Assembly: GCA_003023185.1 (NCBI GenBank)
Contig: PXSB01000035.1
Span: forward strand, 1 to 42,810
Reading direction: 5' to 3'
DNA: 42,810 bases
Source of the DNA: Halobacteriales archaeon QS_9_67_17
GTDB lineage: Archaea; Halobacteriota; Halobacteria; Halobacteriales; Haloarculaceae
Below the pieces are notes generated by a model. It saw nothing but the letters and a program-made list of their open reading frames with translations. It was not told the DNA's origin and searched no databases. Below are positions 7,773-34,459 of this stretch, piece by piece (positions within the stretch are counted from its first letter, which is position 1; the number at the start of each line of letters is the position of its first letter). A program made the translations under genes and the position numbers.

Positions 7773-7817
7773 AGCTACCGTTCGTGACCCCGACGTTTGT
7801 GCGTGACGCCGTATGAA

Positions 7818-8033
7818 GGCGGTGTCCAGATACGCAAGGTGTCGCTCGACTGAGCAGCCGTAGTGGGTGGGACTGGAAGGGGCCGGTCGGTACGGGAAGC
7901 ACGGCGACGCAAGCACCGCAGCCCGACCGACGGAAGGGAAGGCGCGCAGCGAGCCGCGCGACCGTAGCGACCGGGGGCTTTCTACATCTCGGTGGCCGAT
8001 GAGTCTCCGGGGTCACTCTCAGCTGAACAGTAC
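7818..8033 (-). mobile_element. MITE-like element, copy A
   Basis: A 216-bp non-coding element, orientation defined by its inner motif. Left terminus GGCGGTGTCCAGATA at 7818-7832; right terminus AGCTGAACAGTAC at 8021-8033, an imperfect inverted match. Flanking 8-bp repeats CGTATGAA (7810-7817) and TGTGTGAA (8034-8041) match at 6 of 8. The internal stem pairs 7884-7895 with 7962-7973 (one mismatch), bounded by the G-rich loop 7880-7883/7974-7977 and the outer helix 7875-7879/7978-7982. It sits between the membrane protein and AN1 genes. The same element recurs at three other places in the window. Confidence 0.8.
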
Positions 8034-8051
8034 TGTGTGAACGCTCACAAC

Positions 8052-11917: not shown

Positions 11918-12520
11918 GTGACCGAGGACGAGACGGACGACGACCGGCTCGACGCCTTCGTGGGCGACGGTCGCGAGAAGTATCTCGTCGCGCACACGAC
12001 CGACGGTGAACGGGTAGAGTACGGCGAGACGTACGTCAAACACGCGGCGGACGCGTACGCCGTCTCCGACGACCCGACGTTTCCCCCCGAGGAGACGGAG
12101 CGGCTGTCGAAGGCCGACCTCGCCCGCGTCGAGGTGGACCAACACCACTCGACGTGTTTCATCACGACGGCGGCGGGCGACGAGGGCGACCTCGCGGCGC
12201 TGCGTGGGTTCCGCGACGACGCGATGGCCGAGTCGCGCGTCGGCCGACCGCTCGTCGCGCTCTACGAACGAGTCAGCCCGCCGATTGCACGAACGCTCGC
12301 CGCGCATCCGACCGCGACGACGACGCGCTTCGTCGGGTGGCTCATCGGACGCTGTGCCGCGCTCGCCCGCCGCCGCGAGACGGCTGACCCCGTCCGGCCG
12401 CTCATCTCCGTACTACTCGTCGCGCTGTACGTCGTCGGGCTGGTGTGCGCGGCGGCCGGCCACGCCGCCATCCGCGCCCGTCAGTCGAAGAAGCGCGTGA
12501 TGCTCTCGCCGGGTCGGTAG
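11918..12520 (+). CDS. CFI-box membrane protein of unknown function
   Basis: A 200-residue protein. Residues 80-130 carry the CFI-box pattern: CFITTA, then LRGFRDDAM, then VGRPLVALYERVSPPIA. This conserved segment is seen in many bacterial and archaeal proteins and has no known role. The N-terminal 75 residues are acidic and soluble. A strongly hydrophobic segment at about 162-182 predicts a C-terminal membrane anchor followed by basic residues. The GTG at 11918 is used because the open frame upstream is antisense to the dehydrogenase gene. Its last 40 nt overlap the convergent gene ending at 12481. Confidence 0.75.
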   Translation: MTEDETDDDRLDAFVGDGREKYLVAHTTDGERVEYGETYVKHAADAYAVSDDPTFPPEETERLSKADLARVEVDQHHSTCFITTAAGDEGDLAALRGFRDDAMAESRVGRPLVALYERVSPPIARTLAAHPTATTTRFVGWLIGRCAALARRRETADPVRPLISVLLVALYVVGLVCAAAGHAAIRARQSKKRVMLSPGR

Positions 12521-13032
12521 CCGAGTCCCGACGCCTCCTCGAAGGCGACACCACGCGCCGAGAGCCACGGGTCCAGATCGCCGCCCAGCGCTGCGATGTC
12601 GCTCTGCTCGCGGTCGTGGAGTCGGTAGGCGTGACTCGACCCGACATCGGGGTAGACGCCGAGCCGGGGCCGACCGAGTCGGCCGCCGTCGTGGAGCGTC
12701 ACCCGGTCGAGGTTGTCGTACGCGTGCCACACCACCGTGTCGGCCTGTAACAGCACCTCGTCGACGCCGTGCACCTCGTACACCCGCTCCATCGCGGCGG
12801 CCTCGCGGCGGTGTTTCCGCGCGCCGACCCCGAAGATCGGCGTGAGATACTCGTACTCGGCGACGTAGAGCCCGTCCTCGACGAAGAACAGATCCGCCAG
12901 CCGAAGCGGGAAGGAGCCGGTCATCCCGAAGCCGATCCGGATCTCGACCTCGATGTCGGAGGTCGGGAGCTCCTCGAACTCCTCGGCCGACATCTCCTCG
13001 TCTGCCGGCGCTTGGCCGTCGGAACTACTCAT
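12481..13032 (-). CDS. Conserved haloarchaeal protein, third gene of transporter operon
   Basis: A 183-residue soluble acidic protein I cannot assign. It starts with a disordered acidic tail (residues 1-25). The folded part follows, with FPLRLADLFFVEDGLYVAEY and LTPIFG, then a stretch of charged helix and VLLQADTVVWHAYDNLDRV, a layout that suggests a PH-like or GRAM-like beta domain. Its start codon overlaps the stop of the upstream membrane protein gene by four bases, so it is translated from the same message as the Nramp-like transporter. Start chosen at the ATG at 13032. Confidence 0.72.
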   Translation of the reverse strand: MSSSDGQAPADEEMSAEEFEELPTSDIEVEIRIGFGMTGSFPLRLADLFFVEDGLYVAEYEYLTPIFGVGARKHRREAAAMERVYEVHGVDEVLLQADTVVWHAYDNLDRVTLHDGGRLGRPRLGVYPDVGSSHAYRLHDREQSDIAALGGDLDPWLSARGVAFEEASGLGYRPGESITRFFD

Positions 13033-13430
13033 TCGACGCCACCGTCGACGGTGCGGGCGATTGCTATTCGACCGAACGCTACCGCGCCGATGGCGAACAA
13101 TCCACCGATCCACAGTCGCCCCTGCAGGCCCAGATAGCCGCCGACCGCGATGCCGCCCAGCGCGGCGGCGACGGCGACCTGTGCCACCGCGCCCGGCGTC
13201 TCTATGTCGGCAGGGGCCGACGCGTCGTCCGTCTCGCCGGTCGCCCGGAGGCGTCGTTCGCCGATGTAGGTGACGACCATGGCGGCGAGCGCGACGGCGA
13301 CGAGCGCGGTCCGCACCGGCTGTGACACCGGGATACCGGCGGCTTCGAGCGCGGGCGGCGCGGTGATGACCGCTAGCCCGCCGAGGTAAACGACGTAACG
13401 GTGTCTCACGAGGGTCTGAACGAGGCTCAT
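13029..13430 (-). CDS. Small membrane protein, second gene of transporter operon
   Basis: A 133-residue protein with four hydrophobic segments (about 13-29, 38-56, 81-98 and 105-122) and a short polar loop containing ETDDASAP in the middle. No known domain is recognised. It starts 13 nt after the stop of the Nramp-like transporter gene and overlaps the next gene by four bases, so it belongs to a three-gene operon. An accessory or scaffold role for the transporter is an inference from position only. Confidence 0.7.
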   Translation of the reverse strand: MSLVQTLVRHRYVVYLGGLAVITAPPALEAAGIPVSQPVRTALVAVALAAMVVTYIGERRLRATGETDDASAPADIETPGAVAQVAVAAALGGIAVGGYLGLQGRLWIGGLFAIGAVAFGRIAIARTVDGGVE

Positions 13431-13443
13431 ACGGAGGTGAGCC

Positions 13444-15231
13444 TCAGGCCAGCAGGCCGCTGGCGTCCTCTGCGCCCTCGACGGTGCCGCTCGCGTCGAG
13501 CTTGGCGCGTGCCGACCGGTACATCGTGTACACCTGCACGACGAGAGCGAGCACCCACAGCACGTAGCCGCCGGCGCCGCTCCCGACGACGGCGATGTCG
13601 ACGGTGAAGGACTCGAAGAATACAGCCAGCGAGCCGAGCCCGTAGCTGGCGGCCGCTTCGGCGACCGGCCCGGCGAGCTGCCCGCCGATGAGCAGCACGC
13701 TGAAGAAGCCGAAGAAGCCCGTCGCCCACCACATGGCGACGACACGAGCCCAGCCGGGCTGGGTGTGTTCGGGGAGCCGCGTCGTGTTCAGGATAATCGT
13801 CAACGCGTTGTAGGGCCACATCATCACGCCGGCGATGGCCGCGCCGATGACCAGCAGAATCCACGGCTGGCTGATGAGCGCGACGGCGTTCGACAGCGCG
13901 ATAATGACGATACCCCACAGGGTGAAAAGCGACAGCGTCCCGAGGAACAGCTGCGACTCGTCGATGCCGCGCGCACGACCGTACACCTGATACAGGATAT
14001 CCACGCTGTTGCGGACGAACGACTCGACGATGGCGTACTGCGTGGAGAACAGCGCGATGAAGATCACCGCGTACAGCAGCGTCGCGGAGAGCCCACCGAG
14101 CTGTGGGATGATGACGCTGAGCCACATGTCAATTGCACCGCCCGTGTAACCCTCTGCGTACTCGATTGAGATGGTCATCGCGATGGTGGCGACGACGAGC
14201 AGCCCCACGACGAACGTGAGGAAGTGCTCGCGCTGCGTAACGCTCCACCAGCCGCGCCACCGCTTGAGGTTCTTCTCCGTCGGCTCGAACGCGAAGCCGC
14301 CCTGAATCCCTTCGGGTTCGGCACCGCGAAGCGGGTTCTTGAGTCGGCCCTGATACGTCCCCATGCCGTACCCCTTCTCGCGGGCCCACACGCCCTGCGA
14401 GAGGTTGATGTAGCCGCCGGCCCCGGCGTACGCCAAGCCGCCGAGGAAGGTGGCGATGTCGAGTTCGTCCGCCGGCGGGAGCGCCCCGAAGTTCACGGCT
14501 CCCGCGGGCACGTTCACGAGTTGCCCGGCCGAGCCGACGACCATCGCCAGCACGACTGCCGCTCCGACAGCGACGAACATCAGCGCGACCTGTGCGTTCT
14601 CGATGATGTTGTACAGGACGGGTCCGGCCTGATACGACAGCCAGATCAACACCATCGAGACGACGGCGATCATCCACCAGTCGCCCGTGGCGACGATACC
14701 CGTCCAATCGGCGAACACCTTCGCGCCGCCCGACGCCCAGCCGGGCCAGCCGAGATGGAACAGCCCGGCGACGAGGAAGAACCACGGCCAGACGCGACTG
14801 ATGCGGTCGTAGCCACGGAAGATACTCTCGCCGGTCGCCATCGTCCACCGCTGGAGCTCCGTGTTGATGAAGAACTGCGTGATGACGCCGATCCAGAACG
14901 CCCAGTAGAGGGTCCAGCCGTACTGGGCGAGTAGCTTCGGCCAGAACATCGTCTCCCCGCTGCCCAGCGAGGCCCCGAGCATGATCGCACTCGGGCCGAC
15001 GATGTGGCTGACCTTCGGCACCTTCGGCATCTCGGAGAGCTTGTAGCCGTCCTTCGTACCTTCCTCTGGGTACGACGACGTCGCTGGCGCCGACTCCAGC
15101 GAGTCGTAGTCGCGTTCCCTGTACACCGTATCTCGATACTGTTTGCCCACCTCTGCGGTCGTGTAAACGTCATCGTCCTCGGTGATGACGCCCCCGTCCG
15201 GTTCGGCCGGCTCCGAGTGCTCGTCTGCCAT
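13444..15231 (-). CDS. Nramp-like transporter, first gene of a three-gene operon
   Basis: A 595-residue membrane protein with about twelve hydrophobic segments after an 80-residue acidic N-terminal extension. The first membrane segment holds GPSAIMLGASLGSGETMFWP, which lines up in style with the Nramp entry motif of the APC superfamily, but the canonical DPGN metal-binding motif is absent. Substrate may therefore not be Mn2+ or Fe2+. The region after residue 300 has a long soluble loop. A purine-rich GGGGGGAG about 6-13 nt before the ATG is a plausible ribosome-binding site, unlike the mostly leaderless genes here. The family call is moderately sure. Confidence 0.65.
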   Translation of the reverse strand: MADEHSEPAEPDGGVITEDDDVYTTAEVGKQYRDTVYRERDYDSLESAPATSSYPEEGTKDGYKLSEMPKVPKVSHIVGPSAIMLGASLGSGETMFWPKLLAQYGWTLYWAFWIGVITQFFINTELQRWTMATGESIFRGYDRISRVWPWFFLVAGLFHLGWPGWASGGAKVFADWTGIVATGDWWMIAVVSMVLIWLSYQAGPVLYNIIENAQVALMFVAVGAAVVLAMVVGSAGQLVNVPAGAVNFGALPPADELDIATFLGGLAYAGAGGYINLSQGVWAREKGYGMGTYQGRLKNPLRGAEPEGIQGGFAFEPTEKNLKRWRGWWSVTQREHFLTFVVGLLVVATIAMTISIEYAEGYTGGAIDMWLSVIIPQLGGLSATLLYAVIFIALFSTQYAIVESFVRNSVDILYQVYGRARGIDESQLFLGTLSLFTLWGIVIIALSNAVALISQPWILLVIGAAIAGVMMWPYNALTIILNTTRLPEHTQPGWARVVAMWWATGFFGFFSVLLIGGQLAGPVAEAAASYGLGSLAVFFESFTVDIAVVGSGAGGYVLWVLALVVQVYTMYRSARAKLDASGTVEGAEDASGLLA

Positions 15232-15378
15232 GTGTGATCTCCCCCCTCGTTCGCTGGGGTCATCGCCACCTTTTGGCCCACCTCACAAAGTATTTGTCGT
15301 GGTCTTTTTACACAATAAGCCCTGAGCCGTCCGAGCGTTAGCCAACGGCGTTTTCCGAGTCCATCTCGAAGATATTCC

Positions 15379-15597
15379 GTGGAGCTATTCGGCTACGCCC
15401 TGACCCGCATGATACTGCTTGCCGCCGTCGCCATGGCGCTCAAGTACAGCCTGCTCGGGGTCTACTCGCTGGCCGCGATGTTCTGGCTCTCGCTCGCGGT
15501 GTACGGCTACCTGATCTGCTTCGGCGGGCGGCCCATCGAGCGACGGCTGTTCGGCCGTCCGGGACCGCCACAACCCCCCGAGCAGGGCGACCCGTAA
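15379..15597 (+). CDS. Small membrane protein, two predicted helices
   Basis: A 72-residue protein starting at GTG, with two hydrophobic segments (about 10-25 and 28-48) and a Pro-rich polar tail. No family is recognised. It points away from the transporter operon, and its last 158 nt overlap the run-on 3' end of the D-2-hydroxyacid dehydrogenase frame on the other strand. Its sequence has real membrane-protein character while the antisense reading is Arg/Ser-rich, so I regard this gene as the more believable of the two in the overlap. Confidence 0.6.
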   Translation: MELFGYALTRMILLAAVAMALKYSLLGVYSLAAMFWLSLAVYGYLICFGGRPIERRLFGRPGPPQPPEQGDP

Positions 15598-16567
15598 CGG
15601 TCGGTCCCCCCCGTGTCGGCGGAACGACGAGGTTCTCGAAGTCGGCGTCCCACCCCTCGCCGGCGGCGCGGTCGACGTTGCCAGCCACGATGTCGGCCAG
15701 CCGCTCGTAGTAGTCGGGGGTGTTGCCGGCGTTGTGTGGCGTGATCTGAACGTTCTGGAAGTCCCACAGCGGATGCTCGGGCGGGAGCGGCTCCGGGTCG
15801 GTCACGTCGAGGGTCGCACCGCCGATGCGGTCGGCTCTGAGCGCGCCGACGAGAGCGTCGGTGTCGACGACCGGCCCCCGCGCGACGTTGACGAGCAGGG
15901 CATCTGCCCGCATCGTGTCGAACTCGTCGCCGCCGACGAGACCGCGCGTCGCGTCCGTGAGCGGGCAGGCGAGCACCACCGCCGCCGCCCGTGCCAGCGC
16001 GTCGTGAAGACCGTCCGGGCCACGCACGGTGTCGGTGGGTCCGCCCTTCTCCGGCGAGGCGCGAACCCCGACCGTCTCCACGTCGAACGCGTGCAGTCGC
16101 TCGACCACCGCACGACCGATGTGACCGAGGCCAACGGCGGCGACCGTCGATCCGGCGAGTTCACGCACCTCGCAGGGCCGCCACTCGGCGCGCTCCTGTC
16201 GCTGATACGCCTCGCGGAACGACCGCACGTGGCCGAGCAGCGCCCCGAGGACGTACTCGCCCATGTTCGGTGCGTGGACGCCCGCGGCGTTCGTGACGCC
16301 GATACCGCGCTGGTCGAGGGCGTCGAGTGGCAGATGCTCGGTGCCGGCGAACCCTCCGGCGAACAGCCGGAGTTCGGTCGCGTGTTCCAGCAGGTCGGTG
16401 TCCACGTCGACGCCCGTGAGGACGTGCGCGTCGGCGACTTCTCGCTCCTCGGCCTCGCGAGTGCGTGCGTGCACGACCTCGTGGTCGGGGAGGCGGTCGC
16501 GGAGCGCGGTCGCGTACTCGCTGGCGTCGATCCCGTGGACGCCCTGTCGACGGACGAGCAGTTTCAT
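15440..16567 (-). CDS. D-2-hydroxyacid dehydrogenase, NAD-dependent
   Basis: A D-isomer-specific 2-hydroxyacid dehydrogenase that interconverts a 2-oxo acid and a D-2-hydroxy acid. It has the NAD-binding motif VGLGHIGRAV, the catalytic Arg in VNVARGPVVDTDAL, the Glu region DVTDPEPLPPEHPLW and the catalytic His in ITPHNAGN. The family normally ends near DFENLVVPPT (about 15620). Here no stop follows, and the frame runs on for about 60 Arg/Ser-rich residues to 15440, antisense to the small membrane protein. Either the natural stop was lost or a small sequence error hides it. Start at the ATG at 16567 (MKLLVRRQGV). Confidence 0.85.
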   Translation of the reverse strand: MKLLVRRQGVHGIDASEYATALRDRLPDHEVVHARTREAEEREVADAHVLTGVDVDTDLLEHATELRLFAGGFAGTEHLPLDALDQRGIGVTNAAGVHAPNMGEYVLGALLGHVRSFREAYQRQERAEWRPCEVRELAGSTVAAVGLGHIGRAVVERLHAFDVETVGVRASPEKGGPTDTVRGPDGLHDALARAAAVVLACPLTDATRGLVGGDEFDTMRADALLVNVARGPVVDTDALVGALRADRIGGATLDVTDPEPLPPEHPLWDFQNVQITPHNAGNTPDYYERLADIVAGNVDRAAGEGWDADFENLVVPPTRGGPTVTGRPARGVVAVPDGRTAVARWAARRSRSGSRTPRARARTSRPASRPRAGCT

Positions 16568-20242: not shown

Positions 20243-20278
20243 CCGTCGGGCCGTCGAGTATCTTCGGTCGGTTCGCTA

Positions 20279-20494
20279 GGCGGTGTTCAGATAGGCGATG
20301 GCCGACCGAGTGAGTGCGGTCGGGCGGGACTGGAAGGGGCCGCCGGCTCGACTCCCGGGCCTCGCTGCGGTCCTCGTCGTTCGCTCCGCTCACTCCTGCG
20401 GTCCTTGCGTCGTCCGGGTTCGTCGAGCCGGCGGGGGCTTCCAAGCCGGTTACGCTGACTCTGTCGGCTCATCCGGCCTTATTTGAACAGTACC
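20279..20494 (+). mobile_element. MITE-like element, copy B (interior inverted relative to rim)
   Basis: A 216-bp element with left terminus GGCGGTGTTCAGATA (20279-20293) and right terminus TATTTGAACAGTACC (20480-20494), flanked by a perfect 8-bp direct repeat GTTCGCTA at 20271-20278 and 20495-20502. The internal stem CGCCGGCTCGAC (20341-20352) pairs perfectly with GTCGAGCCGGCG (20422-20433), a sequence different from that of the other copies. The G-rich loop (20337-20340/20434-20437) and outer helix GGAAG/CTTCC (20332-20336/20438-20442) are kept. It fills the gap between convergent genes, with about 75 nt of plain sequence before katG. Confidence 0.85.
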
Positions 20495-20569
20495 GTTCGC
20501 TACGCACACTTGTCCGTGAGGGTTAGACGAGTACGCGCAGAAATTGAGCGGCGGCGGTCGCGTCCGGAG

Positions 20570-22944
<2,375 letters not shown>

Positions 22945-25322
22945 ATGGAACTCATCGTCACCGAGAAGGACAACGCCGCGCGACGCATCGCGGAGATCCT
23001 CTCGGACGGCGGCGCGGGCGTCGACCGACGCAACGGCGTCAACGTCTACCGGTGGGGCGACACGCGGTGTGTCGGTCTGTCGGGCCACGTCGTCGGCGTC
23101 GACTTCCCCCCGGAGTACAACGACTGGCGCGACGTTCGCCCCGTCGAACTGACCGAAGCAGAGGTCGTCAAGAACGCGACGAAGGAGAACATCGTCGCGA
23201 CGCTCCAGAGTCTCGCACGCGAGGCCGACCGCGCGAGTATCGCCACCGACTACGACCGCGAGGGCGAACTCATCGGCAAGGAGGCGTACGAACTCGTCGA
23301 CGAGGTGACCGACGTGCCAATCGAGCGCGTCCGCTTCTCCTCCATCACCGACCGCGAGGTACGCGACGCCTTCGCCGAGCCCGACGAACTGGATTTCGAC
23401 CTCGCGGCGGCGGGCGAGGCCAGACAGGTGATCGACCTGATGTGGGGCGCGGCGCTGACCCGGTTCCTCTCGCTGTCGGCCGGCCAACTCGGCGACGACT
23501 TCATCTCCGTCGGCCGGGTGCAGTCGCCGACGCTCCGGCTCATCGTCGAGCGCGTCGACAGACGACGAGGACGGCTTTGAGGCCCAGTACTTCTTCGAGG
23601 GCGAGGACGGCACGGAGCAGGAGCGCGTCTGGAACGAGACCGACGCGGAGGACGCTTACGAGCAGTTGCAAAATGCAGAGGCAGCGACCGTCGAGTCCGT
23701 CCGGCGACGCACCCGGACGGACGAGCCGCCGGCACCGTTCGACACGACTCAGTACATCCGGGCAGCGGGGTCGCTCGGCTACGCCGCACAGCAGGCCATG
23801 TCGATAGCCGAGGAACTGTACACCGCCGGCTGGATCACCTACCCGCGGACGGACAACACCGTCTACCCGGACGATCTGGACCCCGAGGAACTGCTCGCGA
23901 CCTTCGCCGACACGGGCGCGTTCGGTGAGGATGCGGCGAGCCTGCTCGACAGCGAGATAGCGCCGACCGAGGGCGACGAGGAGACCACCGACCACCCGCC
24001 GATCCACCCGACCGGCGAGATTCCCGGCCGGCAGGACCTGAGCGAGGACGAGTGGGAGATCTACGAACTCGTCGTCCGCCGGTTCCTCGCGACGTGCGCG
24101 GACCCGGCGACGTGGGCACACCTGCGCGTCGTCGCCGACGCGAACGGCGCGTCGCTGAAGTCGAACGGCAAACGGCTCGTCGAGTCAGGGTATCACGCCG
24201 TCTACCCGTACTCGTCGGCCTCGGAGAACCACGTCCCCGAGGTGGAGACGGGCGACGAACTCCGGCTGTTCGACCCGCGCGTAGAGGCGAAGGAGACGCA
24301 GCCACCTCGCCGGCGCGGCCAGTCGCGGCTCATCGAGACCATGGAGTCGATGGGGGTCGGGACGAAGGCCACCCGCCACGAGACCATCCAGAAGCTCTAC
24401 GACCGCGGCTACATCGAGAGTGACCCGCCGCGTCCCACCGGGCTGGCGATGGCCGTCGTCGAGGCGGCCGAGCGGTTCGCCGACGAGATAACCGACGAGT
24501 CGATGACCGCCCGACTCGAAGGTGACATGGACGCCATCGCCTCGGGCGAGAAGTCGCTGGACGAGGTGACCGCCGAGTCGCGGGAGATGCTCCAGCGCGT
24601 CTTCGAGGATCTCCACGACCACCGCGAGGAGGTCGGCGACTTCCTCCGCGAGTCGCTGAAGGCGGACAAGACCCTCGGTCCGTGTCCGGAGTGTGGCGAC
24701 GACCTGCTCGTGCGCCGCTCCCGGCAGGGGTCGTACTTCGTCGGCTGTGACGGCTACCCCGACTGCGAGTACACCCTCCCTCTGCCGAGTCAGGGGGAGC
24801 CGACCGTCATCGACGAGCACTGCGAGGAGCACGACCTCGGTCACGTGAAGATGCTCGCCGGCCGCTCGACGTTCACGCACGGCTGTCCGCTGTGCAAGGC
24901 GGCCGAGGCCGACGAAACCGACGACCGAGTCATCGGCGCGTGTCCGGAGTGCGGCGAGGAACACGGCGGCGAACTCGCGATCAAGCAGCTCCGCTCCGGC
25001 TCGCGGCTCGTCGGCTGTGCTCGCTATCCCGACTGCGAGTATTCGCTGCCGCTTCCCCGGCGCGGTGACGTGGAGGTGACCGACGCGCGCTGTGCAGACC
25101 ACGACCTGCCTGAACTCGCTGTCCATGATGGCGACGACGAGCCGTGGGAGCTGGGCTGTCCGATCTGTAACTACGCGGAGTATCAGGAGCGACAGGCCGC
25201 GAGCGACATCGAGGACCTCGACGGCGTCGGAGCCAAGACCGCCGAACGCCGAGGCCGTCGCCGGCGAGGTGCAGGGCGTCTCCGCCGACCGCCTCCGCGA
25301 CTGGCAGGCGCAGGTCGGATAG
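22945..25322 (+). pseudogene. topA: Type IA DNA topoisomerase I, broken by two frame-shifting deletions
   Basis: The gene encodes a TOPRIM domain (TEKDNAARRIAEI, then ATDYDREGELIG), the catalytic Tyr region TYPRTDNTVYP, four zinc-knuckle repeats (the first at CPECGDDLL) and a helix-hairpin-helix (IEDLDGVGAKTAER). Such enzymes relax negatively supercoiled DNA. Two breaks are present. Near 23548-23561 about 16-20 residues of the family segment after LIVER are missing and the frame moves by one; the first frame then stops at 23578-23580. Near 25247 about 16-18 residues after GAKTAER are missing and the frame moves again, so the proper end (DRLRDWQAQVG, stop at 25320-25322) is in the third frame. 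As read, no full-length enzyme can be made. Confidence 0.85.
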
Positions 25323-25337
25323 CAGTCGGTACGCGCA

Positions 25338-25553
25338 GCCGTGTTCAGGTAAGATCGATTCAGTTGGAGGAGCCAGCGACAAGGTGGAGAAAGCCCCCGG
25401 GCGCTACGGTCGCGCGGCTCGCTGCGGTCCGCCCGCTCGCTCCGCTCGCGGTACGGTCCTTGCATCGCCGTGCTTCCCGTAGCGCCCGGCCCCTTTCAGT
25501 CCCACCCACCGTGGTTTCTCGGCCAAGCGATGCCCCGCTTATTTGAACACCGC
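25338..25553 (+). mobile_element. MITE-like element, copy C
   Basis: A 216-bp element with left end GCCGTGTTCAGGTA and right end TATTTGAACACCGC, inverted to each other, flanked by TACGCGCA (25330-25337) and CGCGCGCA (25554-25561), matching at 6 of 8. The internal stem CGGGCGCTACGG (25398-25409) pairs perfectly with CCGTAGCGCCCG (25477-25488). The outer helix GAAAG/CTTTC is at 25389-25393/25493-25497, with C-rich loops (G-rich on the other strand) between. It occupies nearly all the space between topA and larC. Confidence 0.82.
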
Positions 25554-25602
25554 CGCGCGCACGGTCCAAACACTTTTTCGCCGCGGACGGCCCCGAACAG
25601 AT

Positions 25603-34224: not shown

Positions 34225-34436
34225 GGTGGGGTTTAGCTAAGGGTGACTCCAGAGCGTAGGCGAGCAACAGGTGTAGAAAGCCCCCGGGCGCTACGGTCGC
34301 GCGACTCGCTGCGCGCCTCGCTCACTGCGTTCGCTGTGGTGCTTGCGTCGCCGTGCTTCCCGTAGCGCCCGGCCCCTTTCAGTCCCACCCACCGCAGTCA
34401 CTCGGTCGAGCGATGACCCACGTAGCTGAACACCAT
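34225..34436 (+). mobile_element. MITE-like element, copy D
   Basis: A 212-bp element with left end GGTGGGGTTTAGCTA and right end TAGCTGAACACCAT, flanked by GTTCACGA (34217-34224) and CTTCACGA (34437-34444), matching at 7 of 8. Stem CGGGCGCTACGG (34285-34296) pairs perfectly with CCGTAGCGCCCG (34360-34371). Outer helix GAAAG/CTTTC at 34276-34280/34376-34380. Its left arm is closely related to the right arm of copy A. It lies upstream of the TrmB gene and 23 nt past the stop of the thioredoxin-domain gene. Confidence 0.82.
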
Positions 34437-34459
34437 CTTCACGAGAGGCAGAAACCCGT

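Follow-up and report, generated by a model that had tools for sequence, protein, structure and literature searches.

IS6-family MITEs are a known kind of mobile element. MITEHarch3 of ISFinder, whose name points to a haloarchaeal host, is of the same non-coding kind as the elements analyzed here, a likeness of description rather than of sequence (available part of PMC6807381), and two IS6 MITEs of 227 and 336 bp appear in the accessible portion of PMC7986276. Elements of the ISH29 type are ~697 bp long and carry a transposase; our MITEs share their ends but not their interior. ISH29 and the haloarchaeal IS6 elements ISH14, ISHarch12 and ISHarch14 make 8-bp duplications, as seen in the MITEs (available part of PMC6807381). 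The MITEs, PATEs and SMRs of Haloquadratum walsbyi are likewise high-copy, transposase-free and haloarchaeal; in the available text of that survey, however, PATEs have neither terminal repeats nor target duplications, SMRs have no duplications, and an order-wide covarying core is described for none of the three (PMC3119063). Because IS6 MITEs are already known, finding such elements is in itself a modest result. The new part is their structured cargo, which is widespread in the order.

Repeats of other kinds invite comparison with the cargo itself. REPINs and BIMEs follow a single-strand logic, and bcr1 repeats have an RNA structure. As far as the accessible sources describe them, REPINs and BIMEs, with their RAYT transposases, are built of paired inverted repeats like the core, but the REPs are 20–40 bp long and linked to Y1-type transposases, whereas the core measures at least ~111 nt. 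The bcr1 repeats of the Bacillus cereus group reach up to 130 copies per genome and have mobile features; unlike the core, they are bacterial, tied to a TTTAT motif and, in the available part of the report, without IS6 ends (PMC6542083).

The window, by which we mean the whole 42,810-nt stretch of contig PXSB01000035.1 of Halobacteriales archaeon QS_9_67_17, holds four elements, A to D, as the original prediction had observed, and the boundaries proposed there lie within 0–1 bp of those set by the terminal repeats. All four have the predicted inverted termini near GGCGGTGTTCAGATA, forming a TIR pair in each. Element A (7818..8034, 217 bp) is on the + strand, defined here as the strand of the GGGACTGAAAGGGG-type box; its structured core (7869..7982, +) scores 101.2 bits with the core model R1. 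Comparison with the empty site in the sister genome G005, a single GCGTGAAC, places the left target footprint of A, GTATGAA, at 7811..7817 and the right one, GTGTGAAC, at 8035..8042. Without gaps these agree at 6/8, and the empty site suggests that the left footprint has lost one base. Element B (20279..20494, +, 216 bp) lies between sequence-identical target duplications of GTTCGCTA at 20271..20278 and 20495..20502 (8/8). Its core, placed by the boxes at 20326..20442 (+), scores 34.1 bits with R1 on the + strand and 76.4 bits on the − strand, the hairpin interior being inverted relative to the boxes. Elements C (25337..25554, −, 218 bp; core 25389..25503, −, 109.4 bits) and D (34225..34437, −, 212–213 bp; core 34276..34386, −, 123.9 bits) occupy the same sites in G005. 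The footprint of C is weak, 6/8 at best; that of D becomes TTCACGAG/TTCACGAG, 8/8 in place of the 7/8 first reported, once the left edge is shifted by 1 bp, and the first base of D may belong to this target duplication rather than to the element. Thus, the predicted footprints of about 8 bp stand as given for B, are better than given for D, and remain imperfect for A and C.

The family is much larger than the four copies initially envisaged. The source genome is a MAG of 2.02 Mb in 102 contigs, in which the TIR pattern at up to two mismatches marks 135 ends (76 + 59), compared with 2 + 0 for the reversed control. BLAST with copy C gave at least 43 matches in the same genome; as the best 40 of 231 candidates were scored, the copy number is a lower bound. 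At least 70 distinct elements bounded by TIR-type ends (115–330 bp filter) were extracted from the sampled stretches, which comprise search loci and 40 of 61 further stretches selected for sampling. Their length, predicted to be constant, ranges from 122 to 322 bp with a mode of 218 bp (18/70). The copies are diverged (median pairwise identity 0.75 and maximum 0.88 among 41 elements), which rules out a fresh burst.

The flanks of these 70 elements bear out the predicted movement by transposition with target duplication: flank identity peaks at an assumed footprint of 8 bp (0.53) and is 0.24–0.33 at every other length from 4 to 12. With a boundary slack of 1 bp, 26 of the 70 match at 7/8 or better, versus 0.63% in 300 partner shuffles, and 37 match at 6/8 or better, versus 5.3% with partners shuffled. 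The 33 elements with no good footprint (5/8 or less) count against the explanation that we favor below.

We compared the window with G005, which is collinear with it, the aligned blocks being 90–96% identical. The kind of empty site that the prediction had proposed to look for is found at A, which is missing from G005 and has its 8-bp target there once. At the position of B, G005 has diverged too far to offer a clean empty site, and B was not found there; C and D are common to both genomes. Near window position 1800, G005 has a 214-bp element of its own between perfect GTGCCGGC repeats, opposite which the window has one diverged target copy (5/8 by eye). The absence of A from G005 together with this G005-only element indicates that elements moved in both lineages after their split, unless they were cleanly lost; loss could be the alternative wherever an element is absent from one relative.

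The originally proposed assignment to the IS6 family is supported by the ends, by the 8-bp duplication and by the transposase found in same-ended elements. Halobacterium salinarum ISH29 is bounded by such ends, GGCAGTGTTCAGATAAGG and GGTAGTGTTCAGATAAGC, and duplicates 8 bp of its target, GATAGGCC. Over 15 bp, its ends are the same as variants that occur in the source genome, and the MITE ends agree with those of ISH29 and of IS6 copies in G001, G008, G014 and G025 at 0–2 mismatches in 15. Eight same-ended elements of 694–698 bp were cut from G001, G006, G008, G014 and G025; three (L151, L169 and L170) have perfect 8-bp duplications, and the other five match at 4 to 7 of 8. The L169 protein (G014) and the broken fragment of L151 score 196.6 and 138.7 bits with the NCBIfam model transpos_IS6 (cut-off 125), PF13610 matches in a same-ended element at 31.1 (cut-off 27), and the L169 protein shares 81.7% identity with the transposase of ISH29.

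Same-ended IS6 transposases occur in other genera. Within the genus of the source genome, the matches are two broken copies in G001 and a partial one, weak, in G002. The source MAG (67.5% complete) gave no match to an IS6 transposase, and neither did G005, which is 96% complete, nor the congeneric G000, G003 and G004. That no intact transposase of this type was found in the genus counts against our favored explanation. Some Haloquadratum MITEs moved even though, in the available part of the report, no functional matching transposase was found (PMC3119063). The simplest inference is that a transient plasmid was the transposase source.

Between the ends lies a conserved and structured module that the original prediction had missed. 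It is ~111 bp long and consists of two boxes, GGGACTGAAAGGGG and GGGGGCTTTC, around a long stem that is variable in sequence yet paired, together with conserved internal loops. In an alignment of 50 cores, double compensatory change is seen in 26 of 32 predicted pairs. Paired cells amount to 96.2%, as against 75.5% when shuffled and 34–51% when slid, and the covariation score is 0.496, as against 0.137 and ~0.05; the fold was predicted from these same 50 sequences, and shared ancestry inflates the cell counts. The 50 derive from 57 references, which comprise all 48 cores from outside the source genome of 94–122 nt without N and 9 of 61 cores from within it. The GAAAG/CTTTC helix becomes GGAAG/CTTCC in 2 of the 50 and CGAAG/CTTCG in most of 20 copies of G025. 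A known Rfam family as the identity of the core was rejected, since the covariance models of Rfam 15 gave no match at gathering over the window and, around element C, none even with E as high as 5.

The mismatches in the stem are biased by strand. Over the first 12 positions, read on the CCC strand with the strand not preselected, there are 3 G.T against 40 A.C mismatches, and 92 previously unused cores gave 9 G.T against 23 A.C (p 0.02), the individual counts being non-independent. These wobble counts leave out any core in which less than 10 of the 14 positions pair (15 in the new set). Pyrimidine-pyrimidine mismatches outnumber purine-purine ones by 45 to 11 in the first set and by 44 to 3 in the new one. 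On the GGG strand, the same positions are G.U wobbles and purine-purine mismatches, which are better tolerated in a single strand. The wobble bias is missing in G058 (4 G.T, 3 A.C) and G029 (2 and 3), which counts against the favored explanation. On balance, the strand bias favors the GGG strand, as RNA or as single-stranded DNA, over a duplex cruciform.

Surprisingly for MITEs, the best conserved part of these elements is the cargo and not the ends. The 20-nt 3' box is present within one mismatch in 52 of 64 end-ascertained elements, and in 0/320 tests with shuffled boxes. Among the 36 of these 64 that measure 210–221 bp, the boxes have mean pairwise identities of 0.98 and 0.94, compared with 0.72 and 0.82 for the TIRs, 0.57 and 0.67 for the arms and 0.69 for the stems. 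When C and D are compared with their G005 orthologs, the boxes (0.91–1.00) match the flanks (0.91–0.96) in identity, whereas the TIRs (0.80–0.88), the arms (0.63–0.87) and the core interior (0.68–0.75) do not. Arms and interiors thus seem to have been exchanged between copies while the boxes were retained, and we infer that the boxes are under purifying selection where the copies lie.

The core is found far outside the MITEs. Plasmid BLAST with copy C returned 8 records from six haloarchaeal genera, with alignments confined to positions 51–174; by eye, the flanks of the 6 records inspected have no IS6-type ends. The 124-bp core matches 39 of 59 genomes and R1 matches 44 of 59 (at most the best 64 candidates per genome), the source genome being included in both counts. 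With at most the best 13 candidates per genome, at least 40 of the 53 genomes sampled from the order have R1 matches; among the matches listed for 294 genomes of the phylum there is none outside it, the 234 unlisted genomes being placed outside the order according to their rank in the list. The near-complete genomes G008, G009, G014 and G044 of the same family have no R1 match (at most the best 64 candidates), so R1 does not fire on all haloarchaeal genomes. R1 copies number at least 92 in G058 and at least 90 in G025 (at most the best 150 candidates per genome). The named carriers, Halorubrum, Natrinema and Halobaculum, make the transcription, folding and mobility of the core testable. We found no description of it in the literature searched, in which few subscription journals are represented.

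Association with IS6 ends is frequent in the source genome and rare among the cores sampled elsewhere. In the source genome, 58 of 88 cores have both IS6-type ends and 17 have one; in G058, G029, G007 and G025, none of 82 cores has ends on both sides and a single core has one, and among 47 cores from other loci and plasmids both ends were found in 1 and one end in 3. At 20 loci of G025, the box follows on a conserved 5' domain, and the arms reach ~260 nt by eye; the MITEs hold just the half with the core. Gene context was classified with codon-based gene calls for 53 units, including a few own-genus copies: 20 are flanked by tandem genes, 12 by convergent and 12 by divergent ones, in 3 the unit overlaps with a called ORF, and 6 fell into no class. 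A terminator or UTR role was rejected on gene context, as all contexts are present and core orientation relative to genes has no clear bias (9 same, 6 opposite), which argues against a simple UTR function. Neither did we find a common neighboring gene, the best shared family occurring in 2 of 60 proteins (60 of 162 gene calls scanned), or phage carriage, as one full-length arm had no match in 50,697 phage records.

The ends match IS6/ISH29, the flanks agree at exactly 8 bp, and a close relative without A holds the target once and has an element of its own elsewhere. The interior is taken up by a conserved structured module of which other haloarchaea have many copies without these ends. We read the elements as ISH29-type MITEs with a constrained, strand-specific structured element, and consider it quite probable that they are non-autonomous IS6-family MITEs that captured this module as cargo. 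A putative ISH29-like transposase acting in trans, from a plasmid or from a lost or unsequenced copy, would have moved them. Cointegrates of IS6 elements are resolved by homologous recombination, according to the accessible part of PMC7986276, and host recombination is assumed to have done the same here. If so, short copies flanked by duplications would imply efficient cointegrate resolution, or else a simple-insertion route, in archaea. The IS6 ends would have captured one module and spread it in this lineage. Where the module lies, the constraint on it may act on its GGG strand, folded in single-stranded form, most likely as a putative RNA and less likely as a single-stranded DNA substrate, with arms and stem interiors swapped between copies by ectopic conversion and the boxes retained.

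What the core itself is can be said less firmly; it would be either a new mobile family of structured RNA or single-stranded DNA or a dispersed functional site in haloarchaea. We tentatively propose, at somewhat less than an even chance, that the core represents an undescribed family of mobile, structured and RNA-like elements that spans the Halobacteriales and is selected in place as a single-stranded fold, captured by IS6 ends and spread as cargo, the MITE being the vehicle. The anatomy that we would give this family is just as provisional: a half-unit of ~111 nt, a full arm of ~260 nt with a conserved 5' domain, divergent pairs in some genomes and ~90 detected copies in the richest genomes examined. 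The retention of the boxes in resident, diverged copies, and the occupation of the same site in two species of another genus (L192 and L202), would also be expected of a site or RNA that benefits the host (nucleoid architecture, gyrase-like binding or regulatory RNA) and is kept by working in place. This is a doubtful but serious alternative, against which stand the same-family genomes devoid of R1 matches, the lack of a preferred gene context and the finding that no protein family is common to more than 2 of the 60 neighboring proteins. It is unlikely that the core is itself mobile as single-stranded DNA, in the manner of a REPIN or PATE, through a Y1/HUH transposase with the IS6 ends incidental. 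Such mobility fits the strand-biased fold, intergenic spread, high copy number and divergent arrangement of all 18 close neighbor pairs among the 73 matches listed for G058, but no two of the 77 cores listed for G025 lie within 700 bp of each other. Moreover, footprints in the source genome sit exactly outside the IS6-type ends, and both lineage-specific insertions with readable footprints, A and the G005 element near window position 1800, have such ends. Across 59 genomes, Y1_Tnp counts do not follow core counts (rho −0.09, p 0.49; at most the best 64 core candidates), and G058, G025, G029 and G007 have no Y1_Tnp. This leaves IS200/605 (Y1) transposases rejected as the present driver and a REPIN identity without the expected association; a PATE or IS200-IS605 derivative is excluded by the terminal inverted repeats and target duplication of the source-genome elements.

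Plain IS6 MITEs with a neutral filler interior, whose palindromic, covarying look arose by template switching and gene conversion between arms, are improbable, even though exchange within elements is real, as the interiors of C and D (0.63–0.87) fall below their flanks, two hairpin interiors are clearly inverted (B and L003) and the core loops contain nested palindromes that are short and perfect. Neutral filler does not account for boxes beside variable stems that exceed the transposase-required ends in conservation, for an overall strand bias of mismatches that is unexpected from duplex DNA correction (wobbles are not biased in every genome), or for the recurrence of boxes and fold, free of these ends, in other genera. 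There is next to no chance that the repeats are accidental or an assembly artefact: the MAG behind the window is indeed fragmented and has some odd deletions, but this explanation is refuted by the ends in other genomes and by the core in other genomes and named plasmids. Both the original observation and its assignment to the IS6 family hold.

Several features of individual copies were observed as well. Inversion of the hairpin interior between the boxes was seen at window 20326–20442 and in L003 near 1770, with L036 marginal, among 64 cores of the source genome, and in 0/48 others. Nested in the core loops of some long copies, L156, L157, L164 and L121 among them, are several perfect palindromes as short as ~20 bp; their stems are unrelated, like hairpins inserted into hairpins. 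By their flanks, L192 and L202 represent a paired unit at one site, in which, by eye, one half has kept its stem and the other half has a compensated stem change. L325–L327 and L332 of G025 have tandem repeats of the element's 3' end past the tail, also by eye. In G005 near window position 1800 (L288/L289), a core of the GGAAG/CTTCC variant lies between ends of a second type, GGCGGTGTTTAG.

Other differences between the window and G005 concern the surrounding genes. The ~3.4 kb at window 12249–15627 face just 0.2 kb in G005. A gene for Topoisomerase I (Pfam) at window 22945–25546 is split into two frames, a split that could be an assembly error; relative to G005, the window is short of ~65 bp near 23555 and of 50 bp near 25245. 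The native stop of this gene (25320–25322) is 14 bp ahead of element C, and the shifted frame continues across C as far as a TGA in the right end of the element, which lengthens the product by 69 aa. The topoisomerase gene on G005 contig C9 (L287/L288) has a 1.6-kb insert, absent in the window, opposite window 24346–24371, which we take from its pattern to be intein-like.
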